A stretch of DNA of 55,825 bases from Methanobacteriota archaeon (GTDB lineage Archaea; Thermoplasmatota; Poseidoniia; Poseidoniales; Poseidoniaceae): contig CATFLP010000127.1 in assembly GCA_949514915.1 (NCBI GenBank), positions 1 through 55,825 of the forward strand, in the 5' to 3' direction. The notes under the pieces are model-generated. The model saw only the letters and a list, made by a program, of their open reading frames with translations. It was not told the DNA's origin and did not search any database. Shown here one piece after another: positions 15,512 to 38,416 of this stretch. Position numbers and translations under genes: made by a program. Every line of letters begins with the position of its first letter. Position 1 is the stretch's first letter.

Positions 15512-18500
15512 ATGTGTTATAACCTAACGGCTAGTCGAGAACCCATGTACGATAGATTGAGTTCTAAAAGAACTCAAGTGAATTCTGCAGTTTTATTAGT
15601 ATTATTGATGATTAGTTCTATTTTTGTAAACATTTTCACTAATTTAGATAGTTCGTTTCAAGAGCAAATGACACAAATAGATGAAAATTTATTTTTACAA
15701 GAAAATTTTGAAAACAATATTGTATATCTCCCTAATTTAGAATATTATACTGCGATGGGTGAAGAAATTGTAGAGTTAGTTGTCATTACAAATGATTTAT
15801 CTTCTTTAACAGAATGGCAAAAAGAAAATGGATTTTTAATCAAACAAGTTGATTTAAAAAATGGACAAAAATTTACTGAACATTCATTACCAGATTTTGG
15901 TTTACAACATCGGAAAATTAGCCTTTCAGGTTGGATGGTTGAGAAGCTAGAAACAATTTCTGGAATTTTGATGGTAATGCCAGATCCTGGGACACCTCAA
16001 CCAGTTGCTTTAGAAGAACCTGGAGAATATTCTGTAGTATCTGGAGAATTACATGGAGCTACAGATTCATGGGATAGGAATATTAGCGGTCAAGGGATTA
16101 AGGTTGCAGTTGCAGATTCTGGGATTGATTTTGCACATCCTGATTTAAATGGAACTCAAGCTAGAGTTGATGATGTAACAAGTCCTTGGAATGGGTGGCC
16201 AATTGTTTTTGACCCACGATCCATGGAACAATGGCAGAGGAATGGTAATACATATCCTAATGATTCATCTTCTTGGTATTCAGATACATCTACAATTGAA
16301 TATGATTTAGATATGAATGATTTTTTGGATGATTCTAATTTGTCAATTTTTGGAATTAATCCTTCAGTCTCGGGAGAATATCATTTAGGAAAGCATCCAG
16401 ATACAGTTTTACAATCATTAGCGGGTGGAGAAATAGATATTTTAGTTGTAGATGAATTAATTGCAGGAGTATATGATACCGTTTATGTTGATACAAATAG
16501 AGATGGCTATTTCAATGACGAAAAACCAATGAAAATGGGAAGTGAAACATCTGGAAGAGATACAGACGGTGACGGATTATGGGACCAATCTGCAGGAATG
16601 TTGTATTGGATATCTGATGGAGCGAATTCTTTACCTTACGGGCCTACATATACTTCAAGAGCAGGATTACAAGATAGGATTCCTGGTAATGGAAATCTTA
16701 CATTATTTATGTTGAATGTACATACAGGACCTGCAGGAAATCATGGGACTCTTTGTGCTTCTGCTGTAGCGGCTCAAGGAATTGTAGGTGATGGAGCAGT
16801 ATTAGGTATGGCACCAGATTCAGAATTAATTGCAATTGCTAATATTTATGCAGGCGGATCATTGCTTGATGTATTTCGTTTTGCTGCTGAAGGATATGAT
16901 GGAAATTTAACATCAGGAGATGAATCAAATATTGCTTCATTTTCATTTGGTTGGAGGCCTCCAGAAGGAGGTGCTGATGGTACTGCACTGTATTTAGATT
17001 GGATGACTAGAGTGCATGCGACAAAAACAACATATCTTGCAGCCGCAGGAAATGGAGGGCATGGGTATGGAACTGTAGCCACTCCTGGTGCAAGTTCAGG
17101 AATAATTACAGTAGGTGCGTTTAGTAGTAAAGGAGGAGATAACTGGGGGCAATCAGTAATGTGGACTGACAGGGGTCCAAATGCACTTGGAAGAATGGAT
17201 CCTGATATCGTAGCTGTAGGTTGGTCTGCAACAGGAGATACAACATTAAATCAAAAAAGTAATGCAAATAGTGCATATTCTTCTTGGGCAGGAACAAGTT
17301 TAGCTACTCCTGTTGCGGCTGGATTAACTGCTCTTGTAACACAAGCATGGTATGAAACAAATGGCGATTGGCCAAATAGTCTTCAAATTAGAGATTTGAT
17401 AATGTCTACAGCAGATGATAGAGGATATGATCCCTTTGTACAAGGAGCAGGATGGTTTAATGCAAAAAGAGGTGTTGAAACGATTTTAAATCAAAATGAT
17501 ACTACATTTTGGGTACAACCTGCATATTGGATGGCTGGAAAATTGCAAGGAGCCAATAGAGATGCAAATATGAATATATTATTGCCTGGAGAAAGTGACA
17601 GTGTTAATATTACATTAAACAATACTGGGACATCAACTATTGATTATTCATTTGAACCCGTAGTAATAGAACCAATTACCCATAATAGAATTATTTGGAA
17701 TGCAAGTAGTTCTAGTGGGTGGGATGGTTATCAAAGTTCAAGACCAGATTTGGTATTTCCCGTAAATTTACAAAATAATCAAAATTATACCTTAGATGAT
17801 GATACAATTTTAATTCGTGCCAGAGCATCATTGAATGGTTCGGCATTTGACTCAGATCAAAATAGAAATGAAGAGAATGTACCTTTGATAAAAATATTAA
17901 GGTGGAATGATGATGACGGAGATGGGAAATATTGGGAAGACCTAGATGGAGATGGAGAAGTAGACGATGGAGAATGGGAGGCAGGTTCAGAATATACAAT
18001 GGTAACACAAACAGGGCATGTTTCACCACAGACAGAAGCAAGGATGGGAATGCCATTAGATCATTCAGATTCAGGTATTTTGGTAGGTATTTGGTTAGAA
18101 CAAGTGAGATCTAGTAATGTAGATCCTGTTCAAATGGAAATAGATATCACTACGTTTGGATATTCTTCAAACCCATGGATACAAAATATTTCAAATATCG
18201 TTGTATTACCAGGGGATGAAGAAATAGTTACTGTTGATTTAGATGTTCCCTTGAATGCTTATCCTGGATTACATCAACAAGCCTTAATGATTACAGCAAA
18301 TAATGGTACTAATGACTCACATTCATGGCCTTTGCCAATAATTGTAAATGTTGCCATGGAAGGGCCGAATGAATTAATATCTTTACCTTTAGATGATGAA
18401 TTAACTAATCAATCATTGTATCGCTCAACTTGGATGCAAGGAGCTCAAGGATGGGGTTGGAGAGAAGAATCAGGAGATTGGAAATCAGTTAGTTTGAATT

Positions 18501-21500
18501 GGCCATCTAATTTGACTACAGGAAATATTCTAATTGATGTAGACTGGGATGATAATGTTTGGACTGATATTGATGCACATCTATTGAGTGAACAGTCCCA
18601 TCCTTATTTTAATGAAGATCCCCTGGCTTATGGGCCAGTTCATTTTAGTGTAGAGTCGGGTTCTGAAAATAATTATCAAGGTTCAGGAAAATGGGATTGG
18701 AATACATACACTGGAGAAAGTCGAGAATTATTACAAGCTAACCCCTCTAATGGAGTTAAACAATTATTGTTACATTCAACATTTCATGGTGTTGGAACAA
18801 ATGACAATCCTGTAAATGTCACGGTATCTTATGTTGATAGTTTAGGAGCACCATTACAAAGAGTAGTTGATGATTGGAGTAATGGAGGATTTAATCAGCC
18901 GATTCAAATAGGAAGCACTCATTCATTAAATGTAGAAGAGGTTAGAGCAATAGGATGGATTAAACCCTTAAGTTTGCAAAATGAATCAGCAACTCAAGAT
19001 ACACCAGGAGATTGGTCTTCTAGTGGATATGTAAGAGAAATAGATATTGAAGGAGCTCAAGAATTTAAAATCAATATAGATTCAAATATGTTTGGTGATG
19101 ATTTAGATTTAGCAGTATATAGAGACAGTAATGAAAACGGGGTAATAGATTGGGGCAATGAACAGGAAGCAACTTCAGGTTCAGGTTCAAGTAGAGAGAA
19201 TATTATGATAGAAAATCCCGCGGATGGAACTTGGTTTATAGTTGTCCAAGGATATGATGTTCCTAATGTAAATACCACTTTTTGGATGGAGGTAGAAGTT
19301 CTAAAAGGTGACAATTTAATAGTTGAAGATATTTTACAATTGAATGAATCAGAAATTAACCAATCATATCCTAATGGTAGTGCTCGTTTAGGAGGGATAA
19401 TTCCAGAGGATGTAATATCTCTTAATTTGACAGCATCAATTCCTCCAGAAGAAGGTTATTGGAAAGGAATATTAGAGTTAGTATTAGAAGGTGATTCAGG
19501 AATTGTTAAAATCCCTTATCATTATCAATTGAATGAATTTCCGACTGAAATTGAGTTTTTACAAATTAATAAAGGAGAATATAGGAATAAATCTGGCCCT
19601 ATAAGTTTACATTTATTGGATAGGGGAGGTGGTTTCTCATTAAATGATTTAGAATTCAATGGTTCATTTAGTTCAAATATGATTACCAATTGGACTGATT
19701 GGGAATTAAATCAATGGCATGATTTTACATTTGAAGGAATAGGAATGGATGGGGAATGGAAAGATTTAACGAATACATGGCTAGGCCTTCAGGTTGAAGA
19801 ATCTAACACGTCTGTATTGACAGAATATTCAGGTTTTGTTGTATTTGAAGCTGAAGATTTTTCAAATACAACTGTTGGTATAGGTACGGCTTTGAACACC
19901 TATTGGTCTGAAGAAACAATAGTTTCAGGATATAGCGGTAGAAGTTATTTAGAAGCAAAGCCAAATAATGGTGTCAATGTATTTGATTCTACAGATGGCC
20001 CTCGTTTAGATTATGAAATTGATTTTAATTCACCAGGAACATATTATGTGTATGTTAGGGTGCTAGGGCAAAGTGGTAGCGATGATTCTTTACATGTAGG
20101 TTTAGATGGTAATCCATTAACATATGGAGATGTGGGCATGACATCTGGTTCTTCATGGGAATGGAAGGATACAGCAGCAGGAAATGTAGTAACTTTCGAT
20201 GTTCAAAATCCTGGTAGACATACATTTAACATCTGGATGAGGGAAGATGGAGTTATTGTTGACAAAGTAGTTTTACAGCAATCGGGTTCAATTCCAACAG
20301 GATTAGGCCCGAGTGGATTAATGAGCACAAATGGATTTAATTCTGGGCTTATAGCAGAATTTTTTGATAATTCTGGATTGAGTGTAAATACAAGTGGAAT
20401 GCCAGATTTAAATGGTAGAACGCCTGATTTTACCAGAATAGATCCGATGATAAATTATTCTAATTCAAATAATCAACCTTGGCCAGGACTGAGTTCTTCA
20501 TTTGCAGATGAATTTTCTTCACGACATACAGGTTATGTAAGGGTAGATATTGCAGGAAATTATACATTTTATGTTAATTCTGACGATGGTTCAAAACTTT
20601 GGATTGATAATCAAATAGTAGTTGAAAATATAGGGACTCATGCAATAAGAGAAGAATCAGGAACAATTTATTTAAATGCAGGATATCATACTTTAAAATT
20701 AGAATTTTTTGAGAATTTTGGGTGGGCAGGTCTTGAATTAAAATGGGAGAGTGACACGATACCTAAGCAATATGTTCCCCCAGAATCACTTTTCCATGGT
20801 TCAGGATTACCAATTAGACAAAATGAATTAGTTTCTTGGTGGCCTCTTGATGAAGCAAATGGTACAATTGTTGGCGATTTGATTAGTGGTTATGACTTAA
20901 ATTTAAGTGGAACCAATGGTACTGATTGGGAAATGTGTAGAAGAGCATATTGCCATAATTTTGATGGCATTGATGATTTTGCTATTTATGATCTAAATGC
21001 AAATGAAGAATGGAGCGGAGATTTTACAGTATCTATGTGGGTCAAAGCAGAGACTTTAGGGCAATCTGATTTTTCAAGTATTTTTGCGGTAGATAATTCT
21101 GGAGGAAACAATCGTTCTTTCCAATTTATGGTGGATGGTAATAATCCTGGAACTTATCAATTTTACAGTGATTCAAGATATGACATTGGTCCAGTTGATG
21201 ATGATTCTTGGGTTCATTTAGCTGCAACATATTCAGATAGTAAAATAAGCAGCCCATCATCTACTACAGCTACTTTAAGACTTTATTATAATGGATTACT
21301 TGCCAACACTGCATCTATAGATCCATTAGATGCAAATAATTTCAATCTGTATAAATTAGGTGTTAATAGAGCAGGAAATTCCTATTTTGCAGGATTAATT
21401 GATGACGTAAGAGTTTATGATGCCTCTTTAGGAAGTAATGAAGTATTAGCAATTTACAATAATGATCAATTTCCAGATTCTGGAGGAATAATCAGAGAGG

Positions 21501-23827
21501 GATGGTTAAATTTCAGTCATGATCCAATTGAAGGGCAACATATATTTCAAGCAAGTATTGTTGATGTACATGGTTTGAAAAATCAAACTAATACTTGGTT
21601 GGTACATGATCATACAAACCCAGAAATCAATGTGATTAATTTACCTTATTCTAATTTAACAAATTTAACCCAGTTGGATTTAATTTTAGAAATTAACGAA
21701 TATTCACAATTAATGATAAATGGAATTCTAGAACAATGGCCTGGCATTCAATTTTGGACAACTCTTGATTTATTTGAAGGCGAAAATGAATTCATGATTA
21801 AAGCAATAGATAGGGCAGGCAATTGGGGAGAATTACCATTGATTATTACTAGAGATACGATTTCGCCAGCAATTTCTCTATTCCCCCTTCCTTCCACTCC
21901 ACAAAATGTTTCAGAAATTACAATTAGTGGTTGGGTTGAACATGGTTCTACAGCATGCTTAGGAGAACTTATTTTCAGTAACCCAATTGTTGGTGAAGTT
22001 TTAGCAGATTGTGATCTAAGATCTAATCAAACAGGTTCAGACTCTCAAGGATGGAGATTTAGTGTAACTTATGATCTTTCCGAAGTTAATGATGGTGAAT
22101 TTTTATTCGAGTTAAAGGCTAGAGATTGGGCTGGTAATTGGAATGAAGTTAACACCAGTTTTAATTTAGATACAACACCACCCTCCATTGAATGGATTTA
22201 TCCTAATATTTTTGATAATAATTTATCAAATCAATACCTTAATTTATCTTGGGAAACAGATGAGCAATCTAATCAATACGTGTATCATAATGGCAACTTA
22301 ATTTCGGAATTAAATGGATATGGAATTAATGAATTAAACCTAGAGTTAACAGAAACTGGAGTTCATGAATTTTGTATTTTTGCTATAGATACGGCACAAA
22401 ACTTTGCTGAATATTGTATAGAATCATATTTATCACCTGATATATATTTTACAGATGTATATGCGCCATGGGATGGAAAAACTGTTAATTCCAAAGTAGT
22501 TAGTGCAGAAATATTCTCTGGCCCTAATCAAACTTATAGCTGGGCTAAATTATATTCAAACATGTGGGTTGTTCAACAGCAAGAAGAAACATTTAATGAA
22601 TTTACAACAGTAAGTTTTGATTTAGATGAAGGAATAAATAATTTGAGAATATTTGTTTCAACTTTAGATGGTTATGTAATACATGAATTATCTGTTATTC
22701 TTGATACAGAATCACCAAAATTAAATACAGATATTTCTTTAAAAAATATTTCAGTATCTGATAACTCATTGGATATTACTGGAGATTGTGAGCCTGGTTT
22801 ATTTGTAAATGCAATATTGCAATCTGAATTTTTAGAAGTGGAATGTAATTCATTGGGTAGATATTTGATAAGTATGCCATTATCTGGCCCAGAAGGAGAA
22901 AAACAAGTTTCCCTTTGGTCAGAAGATTTAGCGGGTAATACAGCACAGATCACTTTAAATTTCACATTAGATACAATTTCACCCACGATAGCAATAATTC
23001 AAATTAATGGTAATTGTACAGATCTGCCAATACCTACAATTTTTGATAATAATGAATTACCTTCATGTTTATTAGATGCAAATGCTAAATTTACAGGTGA
23101 AGATATTGTAGAATGGCGCTTTGTAGCTTTTTATGAAGGGATTGAAGTAGAAAGAATTAGTGGATTTAATATAGAGAATGGTACTGAAATAAACCTTCAG
23201 GTTAATGACAATATCATGAGTGGTACCTGGGTATTTAATGCTTGGGCCATAGATGATGCTGGAAATAATTTTGAAACAAATCAAGTTTTTAATTTAACAA
23301 GTGAAGGTTTTTCAGGATTGCAACATGCAACAAAAATTGGTTCTAGTTTAAATTTGATAATAATTGTAATTACTATATTTATGTTATTTACTTTAATTTT
23401 AATCAAGAAAAGAGAATCTGTATCAGTTGAAATATTTGATGAATCACCATCAATAAACCCTGAAATGATTTTTGATGAAAATGATTTATCTTTAGATGAA
23501 TTAACACTTAAAGAAGAACCTAATTTTAAATCAGAAATTATTGAAAATAATGAAACACATGTAGAGATTCAAGAAATAGAATCTTTGTTGAATTCAGAAA
23601 TTACTAATCAGGAAACAGACTTTGATTCACTAAAAGAACTTCTAGATTCAGAAACAAATACATTAGATGAAGCAGAAGTATTTGCTAATGATACAGGAGT
23701 TATGTTGGCTGCCGAGGGTACAATACAAGGCCAAACAGGTTGGTATCACGATAGGGATGGAAATTTATTTTATTGGAATGTTGATGAAAATGGAGTTTGG
23801 ACAAAAATCGATACGGAGTTGAATTAA
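15512..23827 (+). CDS. Giant cell-surface S8 (subtilisin-like) peptidase with CBM-like, PA14 and LamG modules
   Basis: This 2771-aa surface protein begins with a membrane/signal segment (about residues 26-45). The subtilisin triad is Asp202 (VADSGIDFAHPD), His411 (NHGTLCASA) and Ser596 (GTSLATPVAAG), with oxyanion Asn514 (AAGNGG). A long insert lies between Asp and His. Downstream are a PPC-like beta domain (~1170-1270), a CBM6/35-like domain (~1444-1590, FEAEDFS), a PA14 domain (~1611-1760), a LamG-type domain (~1772-1985) and Ig-like repeats. A C-terminal membrane helix (~2613-2632) is followed by an acidic cytoplasmic segment and a tryptophan-rich end (GWYHDRDGNLFYW). It probably degrades or binds extracellular protein-polysaccharide particles. 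An alternative start is ATG at 15545. Confidence 0.9.
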   Translation: MCYNLTASREPMYDRLSSKRTQVNSAVLLVLLMISSIFVNIFTNLDSSFQEQMTQIDENLFLQENFENNIVYLPNLEYYTAMGEEIVELVVITNDLSSLTEWQKENGFLIKQVDLKNGQKFTEHSLPDFGLQHRKISLSGWMVEKLETISGILMVMPDPGTPQPVALEEPGEYSVVSGELHGATDSWDRNISGQGIKVAVADSGIDFAHPDLNGTQARVDDVTSPWNGWPIVFDPRSMEQWQRNGNTYPNDSSSWYSDTSTIEYDLDMNDFLDDSNLSIFGINPSVSGEYHLGKHPDTVLQSLAGGEIDILVVDELIAGVYDTVYVDTNRDGYFNDEKPMKMGSETSGRDTDGDGLWDQSAGMLYWISDGANSLPYGPTYTSRAGLQDRIPGNGNLTLFMLNVHTGPAGNHGTLCASAVAAQGIVGDGAVLGMAPDSELIAIANIYAGGSLLDVFRFAAEGYDGNLTSGDESNIASFSFGWRPPEGGADGTALYLDWMTRVHATKTTYLAAAGNGGHGYGTVATPGASSGIITVGAFSSKGGDNWGQSVMWTDRGPNALGRMDPDIVAVGWSATGDTTLNQKSNANSAYSSWAGTSLATPVAAGLTALVTQAWYETNGDWPNSLQIRDLIMSTADDRGYDPFVQGAGWFNAKRGVETILNQNDTTFWVQPAYWMAGKLQGANRDANMNILLPGESDSVNITLNNTGTSTIDYSFEPVVIEPITHNRIIWNASSSSGWDGYQSSRPDLVFPVNLQNNQNYTLDDDTILIRARASLNGSAFDSDQNRNEENVPLIKILRWNDDDGDGKYWEDLDGDGEVDDGEWEAGSEYTMVTQTGHVSPQTEARMGMPLDHSDSGILVGIWLEQVRSSNVDPVQMEIDITTFGYSSNPWIQNISNIVVLPGDEEIVTVDLDVPLNAYPGLHQQALMITANNGTNDSHSWPLPIIVNVAMEGPNELISLPLDDELTNQSLYRSTWMQGAQGWGWREESGDWKSVSLNWPSNLTTGNILIDVDWDDNVWTDIDAHLLSEQSHPYFNEDPLAYGPVHFSVESGSENNYQGSGKWDWNTYTGESRELLQANPSNGVKQLLLHSTFHGVGTNDNPVNVTVSYVDSLGAPLQRVVDDWSNGGFNQPIQIGSTHSLNVEEVRAIGWIKPLSLQNESATQDTPGDWSSSGYVREIDIEGAQEFKINIDSNMFGDDLDLAVYRDSNENGVIDWGNEQEATSGSGSSRENIMIENPADGTWFIVVQGYDVPNVNTTFWMEVEVLKGDNLIVEDILQLNESEINQSYPNGSARLGGIIPEDVISLNLTASIPPEEGYWKGILELVLEGDSGIVKIPYHYQLNEFPTEIEFLQINKGEYRNKSGPISLHLLDRGGGFSLNDLEFNGSFSSNMITNWTDWELNQWHDFTFEGIGMDGEWKDLTNTWLGLQVEESNTSVLTEYSGFVVFEAEDFSNTTVGIGTALNTYWSEETIVSGYSGRSYLEAKPNNGVNVFDSTDGPRLDYEIDFNSPGTYYVYVRVLGQSGSDDSLHVGLDGNPLTYGDVGMTSGSSWEWKDTAAGNVVTFDVQNPGRHTFNIWMREDGVIVDKVVLQQSGSIPTGLGPSGLMSTNGFNSGLIAEFFDNSGLSVNTSGMPDLNGRTPDFTRIDPMINYSNSNNQPWPGLSSSFADEFSSRHTGYVRVDIAGNYTFYVNSDDGSKLWIDNQIVVENIGTHAIREESGTIYLNAGYHTLKLEFFENFGWAGLELKWESDTIPKQYVPPESLFHGSGLPIRQNELVSWWPLDEANGTIVGDLISGYDLNLSGTNGTDWEMCRRAYCHNFDGIDDFAIYDLNANEEWSGDFTVSMWVKAETLGQSDFSSIFAVDNSGGNNRSFQFMVDGNNPGTYQFYSDSRYDIGPVDDDSWVHLAATYSDSKISSPSSTTATLRLYYNGLLANTASIDPLDANNFNLYKLGVNRAGNSYFAGLIDDVRVYDASLGSNEVLAIYNNDQFPDSGGIIREGWLNFSHDPIEGQHIFQASIVDVHGLKNQTNTWLVHDHTNPEINVINLPYSNLTNLTQLDLILEINEYSQLMINGILEQWPGIQFWTTLDLFEGENEFMIKAIDRAGNWGELPLIITRDTISPAISLFPLPSTPQNVSEITISGWVEHGSTACLGELIFSNPIVGEVLADCDLRSNQTGSDSQGWRFSVTYDLSEVNDGEFLFELKARDWAGNWNEVNTSFNLDTTPPSIEWIYPNIFDNNLSNQYLNLSWETDEQSNQYVYHNGNLISELNGYGINELNLELTETGVHEFCIFAIDTAQNFAEYCIESYLSPDIYFTDVYAPWDGKTVNSKVVSAEIFSGPNQTYSWAKLYSNMWVVQQQEETFNEFTTVSFDLDEGINNLRIFVSTLDGYVIHELSVILDTESPKLNTDISLKNISVSDNSLDITGDCEPGLFVNAILQSEFLEVECNSLGRYLISMPLSGPEGEKQVSLWSEDLAGNTAQITLNFTLDTISPTIAIIQINGNCTDLPIPTIFDNNELPSCLLDANAKFTGEDIVEWRFVAFYEGIEVERISGFNIENGTEINLQVNDNIMSGTWVFNAWAIDDAGNNFETNQVFNLTSEGFSGLQHATKIGSSLNLIIIVITIFMLFTLILIKKRESVSVEIFDESPSINPEMIFDENDLSLDELTLKEEPNFKSEIIENNETHVEIQEIESLLNSEITNQETDFDSLKELLDSETNTLDEAEVFANDTGVMLAAEGTIQGQTGWYHDRDGNLFYWNVDENGVWTKIDTELN

Positions 23828-30055: not shown

Positions 30056-30127
30056 ATTTGCTTTTTACTTAAATAATTGAAATATATGTATTTTTGAGAA
30101 TGGTTATTTTTTGCGGAAGATTTTTTT

Positions 30128-30137
30128 TATTATATAC
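30128..30137 (+). promoter_or_regulatory. Probable TATA box for the 30175 gene
   Basis: ATTATATACT lies about 45 bp before the ATG at 30175. A start about 25 bp downstream would leave a short leader with AGGTG just before the ATG. Confidence 0.4.
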
Positions 30138-30174
30138 TAATCAAACTTTTTACCTTCCTCCTATTGGCAGGTGC

Positions 30175-33100
30175 ATGGCAGTGTTAGATAGCCGTGTTCT
30201 TACTTTCATCGTTATTGGCTTGTTGATGGTTTCAAGCCCCCTAGTAATAATCTCCGAAGAGTTAGAAATGAATTATTCAGATTCCGAAGTAGAAGGGCGT
30301 GTTACTGTAGATTATCTTGTTGAATCAGTATCTTTTGGAAATACATCAAGTCCTGTGGAAAATTGGACTGAACCAGATAAATCAGTTGCGAATTTTTTAA
30401 TTAGAGGAGTTTTAGTGGATATTGATGTGACAATTTTTCAAAATGCAGGATCATTAGGACAATTTTCTACAGCATATGTTTTAGTTGAGGCATATCACCC
30501 AATAGGATATCTTGAATGGAGTGATTCTTATACAGAATACATGACTAGAGGAATGCGCAATACTACAACTGTTAAGTGGACACCAGAAGCTGCTCATAGT
30601 CATCTTGAGAATGGTTCATTATCTGGAGGTTATACAATAAGAGTTACAATATCTAATGATAATATAGATACAGATACAGATCCTTCTAATAATGTAATGG
30701 AAATTGAAATGCCTGTGGCTATTTGGAGAGATCAACTTGATGACACAAGTGAGACGGCATCTTATTTTGCAATGCGTGCATATAAGTATTCTAAAGATAC
30801 TGCAGATGGACCTGATGCTATCGGAAAAGGATCTTGGCAATTAGAAGAGAATACAGGTATTGTTGGTTCTGATAGTTATCGTCATTCAACACCTGGAAAT
30901 AATTACCCTGGAAATGCATATGATAGATTGGTATGGGGTTTCCCTACTGATGGGCAATCTGGTTGTGGAGAAGTATTGGGCGTTAGGAGTTCTAATGAGT
31001 TTGGATGGGATGGAGATGGTTCATATTTTTGGCCATGGTGTAGAGCTAAATTAGATGGTAGCCAATTTGTAACTTTGGATATTGCAACACAGGCGTGGGG
31101 TAATATAGGTACAGGAGATAAAGTGGGGCTTGAGTTATGGCAAGCAGGCGGAGGAAATATCCAAACTTTGGTAAAAGAGATTGAAGGCGTAAGCAGTACT
31201 AATTCTCAATGGTCTCAAGTATATTGGAAAGTTTCTGATGAAGAAATGAATAAATTAGAATGGCATGTTGGCTTTATTTTTGAAAGCGATAATTCTGTGG
31301 CAACTCCAGGATATCATGTAGATGATTTTGCTATTTTTGCAGTTGAAAATGTTTCTAGATTTACTCTCGATGTAGATTGTAAAGATATCACTACTGGACA
31401 ATATCCTGATTTAGGTTTTAGTGTTATTCCTGATGACCCTAACCCTCCAGCTATGGAATGTTTAATTCATAATAATGGATATCGGGATGCACATGTTAGT
31501 GTATTAAGCAATAATAACAATGATACTTGGTTTGATCCAAGAATTGATCATAGTCTTTCATCGACATATGGTTCTCAAGTATTTGTAATAATTCCTCCAG
31601 ATGAGACTGCAGCATTTTGGATTAATCAATCAATAATTCCAGCTGCAGAGGTCACTAATCCAAGTGACATTGCATTATTGAACATCTCAGTTATTGGTTC
31701 ATATACTCTTGAAGAACATTATTTCACTTCAATTCCTATTTCTGTAGGTTATCATGACAATGCACGTATTTGGTCTGAAGCACCCAATCCAGCATTTTCA
31801 TTTTATCCTGGAGAATCTGGAATTGTAGACGTCCAAGTCACAAATACAGGAAATAAAAATGGTAAATTTGCATTGACTGGTGCATTTCCTAATGAAAGAC
31901 CACAATGGCTTCCATGGTTGTCAATCTCGTATAAAGATCAGTTTGGTAACGATATTCCAAGAGATAATAATGGATTCCAATCAATAGAATTAACCAAGGG
32001 AGAATCTGTAGATTTATCTTTAGAATTAGTTGCACCAGTTGAAACATTTCCAGGAGTTTTCGACATAGAATTGCAGGTAAATGGAATTGAAGGAACATCT
32101 ACGCAAGCAACATTCCCACTAGCAATTGAAGTAAGAACTCAGTATGATTTACAAATGACAGCCGAATCTCAATCATTAAGCACTCCTGCAGATGGAGTAC
32201 AAGAGTTAATACCTGTAAATCTAGTAAATAATGGGAATACTTTAGAGGTATTTGATTTACAATTGTTAGGAGATGCTTGGTCTTTAGGTGCAGAATTATC
32301 ATCAACACAAACCCAACCACTTGCTGCTTACGGGTTAGAATCATCAGGAGTTAATATCATATTACCTATGACTGAAGGAATTAGTCCTGGAGATTATACA
32401 TTAATTTTATCTGCAACTTCAGTAAATGATCAAAATTACAATGGCCAGATATATTTCACAATAACAGTTGAAGACACAAGGAAAGTAGAAGTCGAAAGTA
32501 GAGATTTAAGAGAGCAAAGTTATCGTGGAGGACAACAAGTAGAATCTATAACTTTTCAAATCAATAATACTGGAAATATTGAAGATCAATATATTATCCA
32601 GTTAGATACACCACTTGGAATGGATGCTTATGTAGAATCAATTGGAATGGATGGAGGAAAAACACCTTTGATACAACCAGGGGCATCATTTAATGTGACA
32701 GTTTCATTTACATTTGATACATTAGCAGAAGGAGATTTTAATTTAGGAGTAATTGCAAAAAGTAGCAATAATGAAAATGTAATGTCTACGGGAAATGCTA
32801 AATTTATAGTAGGTAATTTAGGTTGGATAAAATTATTACTTTCTTCCGAAGATTTAGATATTGATCTTGAAACAGAAGAAGCAGGAAAAGTATATGTTTT
32901 GCATGTTGATGAAAATGGTGACTACTACTTAAATTTACAAGTATTCAATAAACATTACACTGAACAAGAAATTAGAATTGACTTTGATGATAAAATTTCA
33001 GCCAGTTATTTTGGTATTCAAGTAGATGAGTATACAAGTGCCTTTAATGTTAGAGATAATGATAATGAGGATATTGCGTTGAAAATAAGTGTTCCACGTT

Positions 33101-33612
33101 CAACACTTCTTTCATTACCTAGTGATACATATATGGTTAATTTGACAATTTGGGTTGAATCAGATCTTGATGTGTCTCCGTTGATATTAAGAGTGGATTT
33201 GATGCGAGAATCTCTAAATACAGAGGTAGAGGAAAGTTCTAGTGAATATAGCAGCATGATTTTTAATGGTCTTTCTATAGTGTTGCTTGTAGGAATTCTT
33301 GGAGGATTATTATTTGTTCTTTGGAGGGAATTTTCCAAGGAAGATGATGAAGAATCATATAATTATGATTCAGGAATAACAAGCCAATTTGGTGATGATG
33401 GGCGTTCAGTACCTTCAGCAAGTATGTTATTGGGTGGCGTAGATTCGATTGAAGTTGGAAAAACAGCTCCTGATTTACCTCAAGAAAATGATCTTGTTGC
33501 GAATATAGATGAAGAAACATCTCCTCCATTGCCAGTGTCTGGGTTACCAGAAGGATGGACAATGGAGCAATGGAAACATTATGGCCAACAATGGTTAGAT
33601 CAGCAAAAATAA
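30175..33612 (+). CDS. Large cell-surface protein with Ig-like/NEW3-type repeats, C-terminal anchor and Trp-rich tail
   Basis: The start is the ATG at 30175 (AGGTG just upstream), giving 1145 aa; the frame is open further upstream but without a plausible signal. A signal segment (~8-28) is followed by a long beta-rich extracellular region. In it, NTGNKNGKF, NNGNTLEVFDL and NNTGNIEDQYII mark repeats like archaeal NEW3/CARDB Ig-like domains. A membrane helix lies at ~1027-1050, then an acidic cytoplasmic segment and a conserved-looking end LPEGWTMEQWKHYGQQWL. It is likely a structural or adhesive surface protein; I see no catalytic domain. Confidence 0.7.
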   Translation: MAVLDSRVLTFIVIGLLMVSSPLVIISEELEMNYSDSEVEGRVTVDYLVESVSFGNTSSPVENWTEPDKSVANFLIRGVLVDIDVTIFQNAGSLGQFSTAYVLVEAYHPIGYLEWSDSYTEYMTRGMRNTTTVKWTPEAAHSHLENGSLSGGYTIRVTISNDNIDTDTDPSNNVMEIEMPVAIWRDQLDDTSETASYFAMRAYKYSKDTADGPDAIGKGSWQLEENTGIVGSDSYRHSTPGNNYPGNAYDRLVWGFPTDGQSGCGEVLGVRSSNEFGWDGDGSYFWPWCRAKLDGSQFVTLDIATQAWGNIGTGDKVGLELWQAGGGNIQTLVKEIEGVSSTNSQWSQVYWKVSDEEMNKLEWHVGFIFESDNSVATPGYHVDDFAIFAVENVSRFTLDVDCKDITTGQYPDLGFSVIPDDPNPPAMECLIHNNGYRDAHVSVLSNNNNDTWFDPRIDHSLSSTYGSQVFVIIPPDETAAFWINQSIIPAAEVTNPSDIALLNISVIGSYTLEEHYFTSIPISVGYHDNARIWSEAPNPAFSFYPGESGIVDVQVTNTGNKNGKFALTGAFPNERPQWLPWLSISYKDQFGNDIPRDNNGFQSIELTKGESVDLSLELVAPVETFPGVFDIELQVNGIEGTSTQATFPLAIEVRTQYDLQMTAESQSLSTPADGVQELIPVNLVNNGNTLEVFDLQLLGDAWSLGAELSSTQTQPLAAYGLESSGVNIILPMTEGISPGDYTLILSATSVNDQNYNGQIYFTITVEDTRKVEVESRDLREQSYRGGQQVESITFQINNTGNIEDQYIIQLDTPLGMDAYVESIGMDGGKTPLIQPGASFNVTVSFTFDTLAEGDFNLGVIAKSSNNENVMSTGNAKFIVGNLGWIKLLLSSEDLDIDLETEEAGKVYVLHVDENGDYYLNLQVFNKHYTEQEIRIDFDDKISASYFGIQVDEYTSAFNVRDNDNEDIALKISVPRSTLLSLPSDTYMVNLTIWVESDLDVSPLILRVDLMRESLNTEVEESSSEYSSMIFNGLSIVLLVGILGGLLFVLWREFSKEDDEESYNYDSGITSQFGDDGRSVPSASMLLGGVDSIEVGKTAPDLPQENDLVANIDEETSPPLPVSGLPEGWTMEQWKHYGQQWLDQQK

Positions 33613-35322: not shown

Positions 35323-35413
35323 TATTGCAGATTTATTTTCTGTAGTCTGCGTTATATTCAAGAATCGCATTCGTGTGGCATATAATGTCCAGTCAAATTT
35401 GGACGGTGATTTG

Positions 35414-37549
35414 ATGTCAAAACCAGTATTGATTCTTTTTGGAACCCAATCTGGTAATTCTGAAGATTTAGCATCACAATTAGCTAAATCTGCAACTGCT
35501 CATGGCTTGACTCCAACTGTGCTTGATATGGATGCAACAAATGTAGAGATGATGGCATCTTCAGAAAGGATTTTGATTATTTGTAGTACTTGGGGAGAAG
35601 GTGAAATGCCTGATTCTGCTGAAGCATTATGGGATTCAATTAATGCAGAAGGAGTGCCAAAAATGGAAAATACGCATTTTTCAGTTTGTGCTCTTGGAGA
35701 TACAAGTTACGAATTTTATTGCCAGTCTGGTAAAGATTGGGATCGAAGATTGGAAGAATTAGGGGCAAAACGAGTTTTTGCAAGGCAAGATTGTGATGTT
35801 GACTTTGACGAACCTTATGCTGCATGGGCCGCAGGTGCTTTACCAGCAATATCTTCTGTTGGTGGATCAGTTGCAGAAGTTGTCGAAGAACCCTCAGAAG
35901 AATTAAGTGAACCTAGTACTGAAGAATCTTCATCAGGGGAATTAGATGAAATAATGTCTGATGGAGATAGAAAATTAGTAGTTTTATTCGGAAGCCAATC
36001 TGGAAATTCAGAAGATTTAGCCTTTAGGGTAAAGTCAAAAGCAAGTGAATTTGGATTAAATGCAGAAGTTTTCGATATGGAAGGTTTTGATTTAAATTCA
36101 TTAGAGAACACATCAAGATTATTGATAATTTGTAGTACTTGGGGTGAGGGCGATATGCCTGATTCTGCTGAAGCATTATGGCAACTTGCGAAATCAGACA
36201 AAAGGCCAAAATTATCAAAAACTTATTTCTCAGTTTGTGCTCTTGGAGATACAAGTTATGAATTCTTTTGCCAGTCTGGTAAAGATTGGGATGAAGTTAT
36301 AGAAGAAATGGGTGGAAAAAGAATTCATGAAAGAGCAGATTGTGATGTTGATTTCGATCCAACATTCCAGAAATGGGTGATTCCAGCATTAGCTGGTCTT
36401 GCAGCAGTAGATGGTAATGGAGACTATCACGAAGAATTAGTGTCATTATTCATAGAATTAGTCGAAAATAAAGGAAAGAAAACTTCAACTGGAGATTTAG
36501 ATACTCCTGTTATTTTCCGTGAGTCAATTGAATTAACTTTCAAAATCTTCCGATATAATCCTTTATTGATCGAAAAAGGATGGGATACATATGAATGTAA
36601 AATACCAGGTCATTTTTCATTATTAGATGCATTAAAATCCATAAAATCAAATTTCGACCCTACACTTTCTTTTAGAGGAAGTGGACCTTTATCAGGAATT
36701 ATTGTTAATGGTGCAGTCGTAAGAGCAGATAGAACCCGATTGTTAGATATGGTTGAATTATGTGGTCATGAACTTAAGATAGAACCATTATCTGGATATG
36801 AAGTAGTAAAGGATTTGGTAATAAGCACTAAAAATTATGATGTCCATAGAATTAAATCTACTCCATGGATGATTCCTGCTACTAGATCCGGTGTTAATAC
36901 TGTTTCAGGAACTACTATCGGAGTGATGGATGCATCAAAAGCTACAGATTTACATGAATTAGGAGACATAGATAGCCCCCAATTATTGCATTCATTTTCA
37001 GATACCTTGCCTTATGATCCAGAGTACATTGGTCCAGCATTAGTAATGCATACTTGGAAAAGAGTAAATGATGAAAGGTATTCAGAAAAAGCAAGACAAT
37101 CAAGCATTAATTTACTTCAAAACGAAGGAGGAGCTTGGAATGAATCAGATTGTAGTTCATTTGGAAGGCATGGAGATTTCGGTAAAAAAATTGCCAATTC
37201 ATTTAATGAATGCCGTGCAGAATTAATTCGTAAAAAAGGCTTTTCTGGAAAGCATGGGCGTTTAGTAAAATGGTATGGACTTTCAGTAAAATGGTCTGGT
37301 AAAGTAAATGAAACAACATTGTATAGGCAAGTTTTAGGTCCCTTAGGATTAGTATCAAATTTATTTTCGGGAGTTTCTATGAGGATGATGCTTGGATTTA
37401 CTAGGACTGGTGCAAAACCATTTAGAAGCATTTTTCCATTAATAGCACCACCTGCAGGAATTGGAAAAATTCCTCCAATGATTAATTCTAAGGTTGAGTC
37501 ACATCATGAAGTGGCAAATTTATTTAATAAATTAGATAAGAGGTTTTGA
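35414..37549 (+). CDS. Tandem flavodoxin fused to a cysteine-depleted SdhB-like subunit
   Basis: The start is the ATG at 35414 (GGTGAT upstream; the frame extends to GTG 35375), giving 711 aa. Two diflavin-reductase-type flavodoxin domains (~1-147 and ~182-330) each show FGxQSGNSEDLA, CSTWGEG and CALGDTSYEF FMN motifs and are joined by a Glu/Ser linker. Residues ~365-620 follow the fold order of succinate dehydrogenase/fumarate reductase iron-sulfur subunits: FKIFRYNP, LLDALKSIK, DPTLSFRGS, VVKDLVI, EYIGPALV. The [2Fe-2S] cysteine loop after DPTLSFR is gone, as are essentially all [4Fe-4S]/[3Fe-4S] cysteines. No NAD(P)H-binding domain is present. It abuts the HdrB-like gene and probably forms a complex with its product. 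Confidence 0.8.
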   Translation: MSKPVLILFGTQSGNSEDLASQLAKSATAHGLTPTVLDMDATNVEMMASSERILIICSTWGEGEMPDSAEALWDSINAEGVPKMENTHFSVCALGDTSYEFYCQSGKDWDRRLEELGAKRVFARQDCDVDFDEPYAAWAAGALPAISSVGGSVAEVVEEPSEELSEPSTEESSSGELDEIMSDGDRKLVVLFGSQSGNSEDLAFRVKSKASEFGLNAEVFDMEGFDLNSLENTSRLLIICSTWGEGDMPDSAEALWQLAKSDKRPKLSKTYFSVCALGDTSYEFFCQSGKDWDEVIEEMGGKRIHERADCDVDFDPTFQKWVIPALAGLAAVDGNGDYHEELVSLFIELVENKGKKTSTGDLDTPVIFRESIELTFKIFRYNPLLIEKGWDTYECKIPGHFSLLDALKSIKSNFDPTLSFRGSGPLSGIIVNGAVVRADRTRLLDMVELCGHELKIEPLSGYEVVKDLVISTKNYDVHRIKSTPWMIPATRSGVNTVSGTTIGVMDASKATDLHELGDIDSPQLLHSFSDTLPYDPEYIGPALVMHTWKRVNDERYSEKARQSSINLLQNEGGAWNESDCSSFGRHGDFGKKIANSFNECRAELIRKKGFSGKHGRLVKWYGLSVKWSGKVNETTLYRQVLGPLGLVSNLFSGVSMRMMLGFTRTGAKPFRSIFPLIAPPAGIGKIPPMINSKVESHHEVANLFNKLDKRF

Positions 37550-38416
37550 GTGATTAAAATGGTTAAGTTTGCATATTATCCAGGTAATGTTGCTAGAGCA
37601 GCTTCAATTGAAGTTGAAGATTGTATTCAGCCCTTATGTTCAACTTTAGGAATTGAATTAATTGAAATACCAAAAGCCACTTCAGATGGAGGGAATATAA
37701 TTTCTCAAGCATCAACGATATTACAACATACTTTGGTTGCAAGAAATATGGCATTAGCTGAAGAAAAAGGACTTGACATGATCACTACTTGTGCAACTTC
37801 TCATGGTATTCATTGTGATACAATTGATGCAATGAACAATGATATTTCACTAAAGTCAAAAATTAATAGCACCTTATCCCAAGTTTCAGGTGTTGAATTT
37901 CATGGAGAATCAAACTCAAAGCATTTACTCCATGTTTTAGTTGAGGAAATAGGATTAGATAAAATAAAATCATTAGTAAAAAACCCAATTGAATTAAAAG
38001 TTGCAGGTTATTATGGGCCAAATATGCAAAAAGAAGGGGCAAGTTCAGAAGATAATGTATTTAATCCACAATATCTAGAACAACTTATTTCTGCATTAGG
38101 AGGAACTCCAGTAGATTATGATTTAAAATGTCAAAGTGTTGGCGCACCCTCCTTATTGACGAATCAATCTAGTACTCTAAGGATGACTGCTGCTGTACTT
38201 GATGATGCAAAAGAAAATGGAGCACAATTAATGGTTAGTGCTTGTACATTATCCCATTCAAATTTAGATACTTACCAAGTTAAAGCAGGTAGAATCTCAG
38301 GAAAGGATACCTCTATGCCAGTGATTCATTTGGCAGAATTAGTTGCTTTTGCTTTAGGCCATCACAGAGATCGTTTTGCTCAGTTAAAAACAAGAGTAAT
38401 AGTAATTGGAAGTTAG
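37550..38416 (+). CDS. Cysteine-depleted HdrB/SdhE-like (CCG domain) protein
   Basis: This 288-aa protein aligns along its length with heterodisulfide reductase subunit B and archaeal SdhE/TfrB C-terminal CCG domains. Matching segments include YYPGN, LGIELIEI, LVARNMALAEEKGLDMITTCATS, LKVAGYYGP, VDYDLKC, NLDTYQ and PVIHLAEL. The ligands of both non-cubane cluster motifs are mostly replaced: YPGC to N13, CC to S45-D46, CxxC to C81-ATS84, YGC to P157, CC to S196-V197, CxxC to C232-TLS235. GTG at 37550 follows the previous stop directly with GAGGT upstream; ATG at 37559 is an alternative. The two genes are surely one unit. Confidence 0.78.
   Translation: MIKMVKFAYYPGNVARAASIEVEDCIQPLCSTLGIELIEIPKATSDGGNIISQASTILQHTLVARNMALAEEKGLDMITTCATSHGIHCDTIDAMNNDISLKSKINSTLSQVSGVEFHGESNSKHLLHVLVEEIGLDKIKSLVKNPIELKVAGYYGPNMQKEGASSEDNVFNPQYLEQLISALGGTPVDYDLKCQSVGAPSLLTNQSSTLRMTAAVLDDAKENGAQLMVSACTLSHSNLDTYQVKAGRISGKDTSMPVIHLAELVAFALGHHRDRFAQLKTRVIVIGS

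Follow-up and report, generated by a model that had tools for sequence, protein, structure and literature searches.

The locus described here raises the question of what an iron-sulfur subunit can still do once the ligands of its clusters are gone. In the window, which is the whole stretch of 55,825 nucleotides analysed from an archaeon of the Poseidoniaceae, one gene encodes a protein with two flavodoxin domains followed by a region that resembles SdhB of succinate dehydrogenase. The first-pass annotation had read it as an SdhB/TfrB-like electron-transfer subunit converted into a cluster-free, flavin-based or non-redox partner, possibly an iron-sparing device, and had placed it at 35414-37549. 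These limits were confirmed: the longest open reading frame at the locus runs from a GTG at 35375 to 37549 (724 aa), but the ATG at 35414 (711 aa) is probably the true start because the orthologue L065 starts there. A second gene, absent from that annotation, directly abuts the first and encodes a partner resembling HdrB of heterodisulfide reductase and SdhE. The SdhB-like part and this partner are called SdhB' and HdrB' in the following, with ferredoxin and flavodoxin shortened to Fd and Fld where domain orders are given.

35414-37549, forward strand: Fld-Fld-SdhB' protein, 711 aa from ATG 35414, with the frame open from GTG 35375
35417-35860, forward strand: flavodoxin domain A of the CysJ type, FMN motifs intact (Pfam PF00258; NCBIfam cysJ, 288 bits)
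35963-36409, forward strand: flavodoxin domain B, the copy retained in nearly all relatives (Pfam, architectures of relatives, domain tree)
36521-37231, forward strand: SdhB', an SdhB/FrdB fold without any Fe-S ligand (PF13085, 38.7 bits; Foldseek 1kf6_B, TM 0.80; cysteine tally)
36674-36709, forward strand: remnant of the [2Fe-2S] loop, shortened, four cysteines lost (alignment with intact SdhB)
36959-37009, forward strand: remnant of the first [4Fe-4S] motif, one cysteine column being Ser in 97/97 relatives (alignment, cysteine tally)
37142-37180, forward strand: remnant of the second [4Fe-4S] motif (class-E SdhB), one cysteine column being Glu in 97/97 (alignment, cysteine tally)
37232-37546, forward strand: C-terminal tail, partly common to class-E SdhB (GxxNE), with its own near-invariant RM..GFTRTGG
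37550-38416, forward strand: HdrB', the HdrB/SdhE-like partner, 288 aa, eight of ten cluster cysteines lost (phmmer, NCBIfam, cysteine tally)
37586-37801, forward strand: former proximal noncubane site of HdrB' (N13, S45, D46, C81 at 37790-37792, S84)
38018-38254, forward strand: former distal noncubane site of HdrB' (P157, S196, V197, C232 at 38243-38245, S235)

Upstream of the pair lie two very long open reading frames of 2771 and 1172 aa (15512-23827 and 30094-33612); the shorter one appears to encode a secreted or membrane-anchored protein and stays syntenic with the pair.

The SdhB-type backbone proposed from the sequence was recovered by independent methods. Pfam assigned two Flavodoxin_1 stretches (E 1.7e-61) followed by Fer2_3 (E 1.1e-9, above the gathering score) and no FAD/NADP domain, in agreement with the two flavodoxins and the missing reductase domain noted at first pass. 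Residues of about 386-589 matched FrdB/SdhB (phmmer, 1kf6_B, E 6e-10). An AlphaFold2 model of residues 360-724, built from 53 sequences (pLDDT 78, pTM 0.73), gave 33 PDB matches at E<=1e-3 in Foldseek, almost all of them SdhB/FrdB, among them 1kf6_B (TM 0.80 by target length over 244 columns). Profile E-values from an alignment that included five intact SdhB rows are inflated and were left out of account. The predicted fold is thus that of SdhB, with a Fer2-like N-domain and a helical C-domain. When 97 relatives were aligned to five intact SdhB-SdhE pairs from the same phylum, all 12 ligand columns of the three clusters turned out to be lost in 97/97, with two stray cysteines in a single column; the window protein has 0/12, and the loss already suspected from its sequence is fixed across the whole order. 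The Ser and Glu columns listed above are likewise fixed. The tally shows that SdhB' had been stripped of the ligands of its three clusters by the time the order diversified.

HdrB' has undergone a similar but less complete loss. Its best solved relatives are HdrB of heterodisulfide reductase (phmmer 8rvv_B, E 3.8e-32), and nearly its whole length is matched by NCBIfam TIGR03288 (138 bits, cut-off 345) and MFR_anch_SdhE (134 bits, cut-off 500), so that it has the HdrB fold of two CCG domains throughout and falls below the curated cut-offs of both families. Of the ten cysteines that hold two noncubane clusters, the window copy keeps two. The distal site is lost in 97/97 relatives, where only C232 stays (Cys in 97/97), and C81 is Cys in 96/97. 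The five proximal positions read CCCCC in 12 relatives, CCCSC in one, NSCCT in 55 and NSDC or NGDC followed by S or A in 29, the window having NSDCS. Conservation is strong around the former cleft. The bridging catalytic cysteines of HdrB are C81 and C234 in Hdr numbering (PMC13083937); their counterparts in HdrB' are positions 84 and 235, and both are replaced. The five-cysteine proximal site is intact in members of both families. The tree calls for two losses of this site, but the AU test does not reject a grouping of all losers in one clade (p 0.10), and either number fits. The distal site has therefore been lost in all members and the proximal one in most, as the alignment shows. It would be wrong to annotate such archaeal genes as subunits of succinate dehydrogenase or heterodisulfide reductase.

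The two genes are joined in one natural fusion (L087 8870-11833), a single Fld-Fld-SdhB'-HdrB' chain of 987 aa in which the C-terminal tail of SdhB' loses its end. A 948-aa open frame in genome G231 may be a second SdhB'-HdrB' fusion. A structure model of the L087 chain was built from an alignment with L087 first, most other rows being gene pairs joined by reading the TGA between them as Trp; with pLDDT 79 and pTM 0.58 it supports the folds and not the relative placement of the domains. Its parts matched HdrB (TM 0.86-0.89 by target), SdhB (about 0.8) and the CysJ flavodoxin 1ykg (0.93). Read-through of the TGA between the genes was considered and rejected, as 38 in-frame cases among about 96 pairs are near chance.

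At the N-terminus, most relatives have a [4Fe-4S] ferredoxin (Pfam Fer4_13) as the first domain in place of a flavodoxin. A survey of about 100 loci from 21 genera found four forms (Fd-Fld, Fld-Fld, Fld only and Fd only), and a single genus often has more than one of them. On the gene tree of SdhB' and HdrB', ferredoxin presence changes at least 18 times. Sister pairs differ only in the first module, with flanking DNA 86-95% identical on both sides; in close pairs such as L176/L177, L192/L193 and L178/L179 the flanks are 87-95% identical, and homology breaks exactly across the module. In the flavodoxin domain tree, first-position copies fall into several groups and second-position copies mostly track the host, which fits cassette exchange by recombination together with duplication. 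The genome also holds a single free CysJ-like flavodoxin (L302 5480-5941, 153 aa), a possible partner or donor of domains.

The exchanged domains have kept their cofactor motifs. The FMN P-loop (phosphate loop) is present in 131/131 flavodoxin domains, and the flavin-loop motif was found as well. CxxCxxC is present in 54/54 ferredoxins. A strict pattern finds the later CP ligand in 44 of them, and the exceptions listed have it by eye (CPVEII). These alignments and trees show that putative carrier domains, ferredoxin and flavodoxin, were tethered to the N-terminus of SdhB', and that the predicted ferredoxin was repeatedly replaced or deleted in place. The strongest evidence for an electron carrier in this position is that ferredoxin and flavodoxin substitute for each other there. 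All 12 carriers of the full proximal HdrB' site have a ferredoxin and 0/44 members without ferredoxin keep the site, although kinship inflates this association. As the early branches of both families combine Fd-Fld with an intact proximal site, the ancestor likely had two Fe-S sites, in the form of Fd-Fld-SdhB' with an HdrB/SdhE-like partner that had one noncubane site left; rooting was on an outgroup, and the inner branches near the base are weakly resolved. The double-flavodoxin form would then be a derived state, and the genus of the window is likely an end state, with no Fe-S site left. The conversion assumed at first pass holds as far as the ligand loss is concerned, whereas the clusters were not swapped one-for-one for two flavodoxins, since the ancestor was probably Fd-Fld.

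The reading that we prefer, at a probability of roughly one half (0.5), is that the two genes form an electron-transfer pair in which tethered carriers took over from a built-in Fe-S relay and iron was then removed stepwise. SdhB' would now serve as a structural adaptor onto which HdrB' docks, while the tethered domains would perform the electron transfer once done by the internal clusters, carrying low-potential electrons to or from the active cleft of HdrB'. If mobile carriers replaced a fixed relay, one would expect just such a layout, with ferredoxin and/or flavodoxin tethered to an SdhB-shaped adaptor to which HdrB' is bound. The POR domain of 2-oxoacid:ferredoxin oxidoreductase was found in 4/4 genomes checked (G000, G014, G054, G061), and NuoF (PF01512), the NADH-binding subunit of complex I, only in G054 among four Poseidoniales genomes and not even in the closed MG-II chromosome; in most Poseidoniales, complex I may lack its NADH module. 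Reduced ferredoxin or flavodoxin is therefore a plausible source of electrons, and the oxidoreductase, judged by its co-occurrence, would plausibly supply them. In the genus of the window the motifs predict FMN as the only recognisable cofactor of the complex. It is tentatively conceivable, with the odds somewhat against it, that this is a flavin-only complex of the complex II/Hdr type, in which two tethered flavodoxins feed electrons through an SdhB-HdrB core without Fe-S clusters into a repurposed HdrB cleft, the last stage of a stepwise iron removal. It counts against the preferred reading that the genes beside the pair include no flavodoxin reductase, and that the cluster-free SdhB' and HdrB' of the window offer no recognisable electron acceptor within the complex.

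One alternative is a core that has left redox chemistry altogether. SdhB' and HdrB' would then be a scaffold or a regulatory sensor, the tethered carriers would serve an external enzyme, and the cleft would have no chemistry. Every member has lost all SdhB ligands along with the distal HdrB' site, and both folds are conserved without a recognisable cofactor site. Against this, both families include members that still have one proximal noncubane site intact, C232 and C81 are retained, and conservation around the former cleft is strong. This alternative is considered unlikely, at about one chance in four.

In the preferred reading the driver would be a shortage of iron. Replacing ferredoxin by flavodoxin is a classic iron-saving response of free carrier proteins. 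The first-pass idea of an iron-sparing device is strongly backed by comparison, since a [4Fe-4S] ferredoxin and a flavodoxin take turns in place as the N-terminal module; that the exchange and the loss of the last cluster save iron in iron-poor seawater is what chemistry, habitat and repetition suggest. By isolate codes, flavodoxin forms made up 6/8 from iron-poor basins and 1/16 from coastal or dust-fed ones (Fisher p 0.001), a grouping made post hoc and uncorrected for kinship, which gives a hint that flavodoxin forms come from iron-poor basins. The meaning of these codes and the iron status of the basins are what we take them to be. The iron saved by one protein may be small. A second alternative, judged just as improbable as the first, keeps the same redox pair and changes the cause, the ferredoxin exchange and the cysteine loss being an avoidance of oxygen-labile clusters and not a response to iron shortage; this would yield the same pattern. 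In its favour, oxygen sensitivity is expected of the solvent-exposed noncubane clusters of Hdr (PMC13083937), and oxygen respiration has been reported for the hosts (PMC6336850). Nevertheless, the same genome keeps a normal Fe-S SdhB as well as intact CCG domains over the family cut-off, and many species keep the [4Fe-4S] ferredoxin module.

Less probable still is a new cofactor, that is, another metal, a flavin or a small molecule bound by HdrB' and perhaps SdhB' in the emptied sites, for example via C81, C232 and the clade-fixed N, S and D. The replacement residues are indeed fixed by clade and do not drift (NSDC-S/A or NSCCT), and each half of the former cluster cleft has kept one of the two remaining cysteines, but family searches in Pfam and NCBIfam revealed no known binding motif.

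A pseudogene, misassembly or binning artefact has nothing in its favour beyond the motif loss and can be dismissed, as intact frames occur in about 200 genomes, including a single-cell genome and a closed chromosome, with fixed synteny and dN/dS between relatives of 0.01-0.18 (purifying selection). SdhB' was found in 74/78 near genomes and HdrB' in 204/244 genomes of the class sample; the genomes listed for f3, the other family of this class, had none. The named hosts are marine Candidatus Poseidoniales (Marine Group II), the closed MG-II chromosome being CM001443. Most Poseidoniales genomes have a single HdrB-type match at E<=1e-8; a few have two, which look like split copies. The pair occupies the same place in almost all of 41 neighbourhoods, with the thermosome gene on one side and, on the other, a reverse-strand helicase and then the L3-L4 ribosomal operon; the pairs are therefore regarded as orthologues. 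Genus g3 has two versions of the pair (L068 and L161 versus L067, L069 and L162), one of which adjoins genus g4, so that transfer of the whole pair between lineages is likely. A contig titled Rhodobiaceae bacterium (L290, CALDQY010000296.1) carries a Poseidoniales locus and is either mislabelled or from a mixed bin.

The hosts are among the most abundant archaea of the surface ocean, and nearly all of them carry the pair. The swap of ferredoxin and flavodoxin took place here within one protein, in place and many times, on a chassis already stripped of respiratory Fe-S clusters. If the flavin-only reading is true, living Marine Group II species still record a stepwise and repeated removal of iron. 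The natural variants make it testable which Fe-S relays flavin can replace, in what order and at which iron supply.

No such protein was described in the literature searched, mostly without subscription journals, and several known systems share parts of it. Both window flavodoxins are like that of CysJ, but there is no FAD/NADPH reductase part and no sulfite reductase nearby. The uncharacterised Helicobacter pylori protein 3KWL is the only listed solved chain long enough to span both halves of the L087 model (fold match over 623 columns, TM 0.71 by target, 14% identity), and it is perhaps an independent SdhB-HdrB chain. TfrB of thiol:fumarate reductase has SdhB-like and HdrB-like parts in one chain, as in the fused L087. 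It matches weakly (24 of 385 bits), the pair being without clusters and without an adjoining TfrA. HdrB of methanogen heterodisulfide reductase is the best match to HdrB' in sequence and fold, whereas in HdrB' both bridging catalytic cysteines are replaced and neither HdrA nor HdrC adjoins. The SdhE profile of the Wolinella 8-methylmenaquinol:fumarate reductase SdhABE (PMC2680327) covers nearly all of HdrB', whose score stays far below the cut-off and whose 10-cysteine motif is lost.

The pair is not the succinate dehydrogenase of its host, because the same genome encodes a separate canonical enzyme (L301 1083-4618) with a membrane SdhC-like subunit, SdhA and an SdhB with all cysteines; no SdhA-type gene was found in the conserved neighbourhood of the pair (41 loci). 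A phylum-wide search with a less degraded HdrB' traced the closest intact relatives, at about 40% identity, to family f6 of this phylum. In families f6 and f27 the gene order is SdhA-SdhB-SdhE with all cysteines present, which is the arrangement of class-E succinate dehydrogenase, and in f27 these genes adjoin those of malate dehydrogenase and succinyl-CoA synthetase. From gene order and homology, the pair appears to descend from the SdhB-SdhE (HdrB-like) module of a class-E succinate dehydrogenase or methylmenaquinol:fumarate reductase. Unlike the class-E enzyme, it is without SdhA and without SdhB clusters, keeps one HdrB site at most, and has ferredoxin or flavodoxin fused to SdhB. With class-E SdhB-SdhE of the Acidianus/Sulfolobus type (intact in L139, L140, L144 and L145), it has in common the adjacent SdhB-like and HdrB-like genes in the same order, the SdhB and HdrB folds, and part of the C-terminal tail of SdhB.
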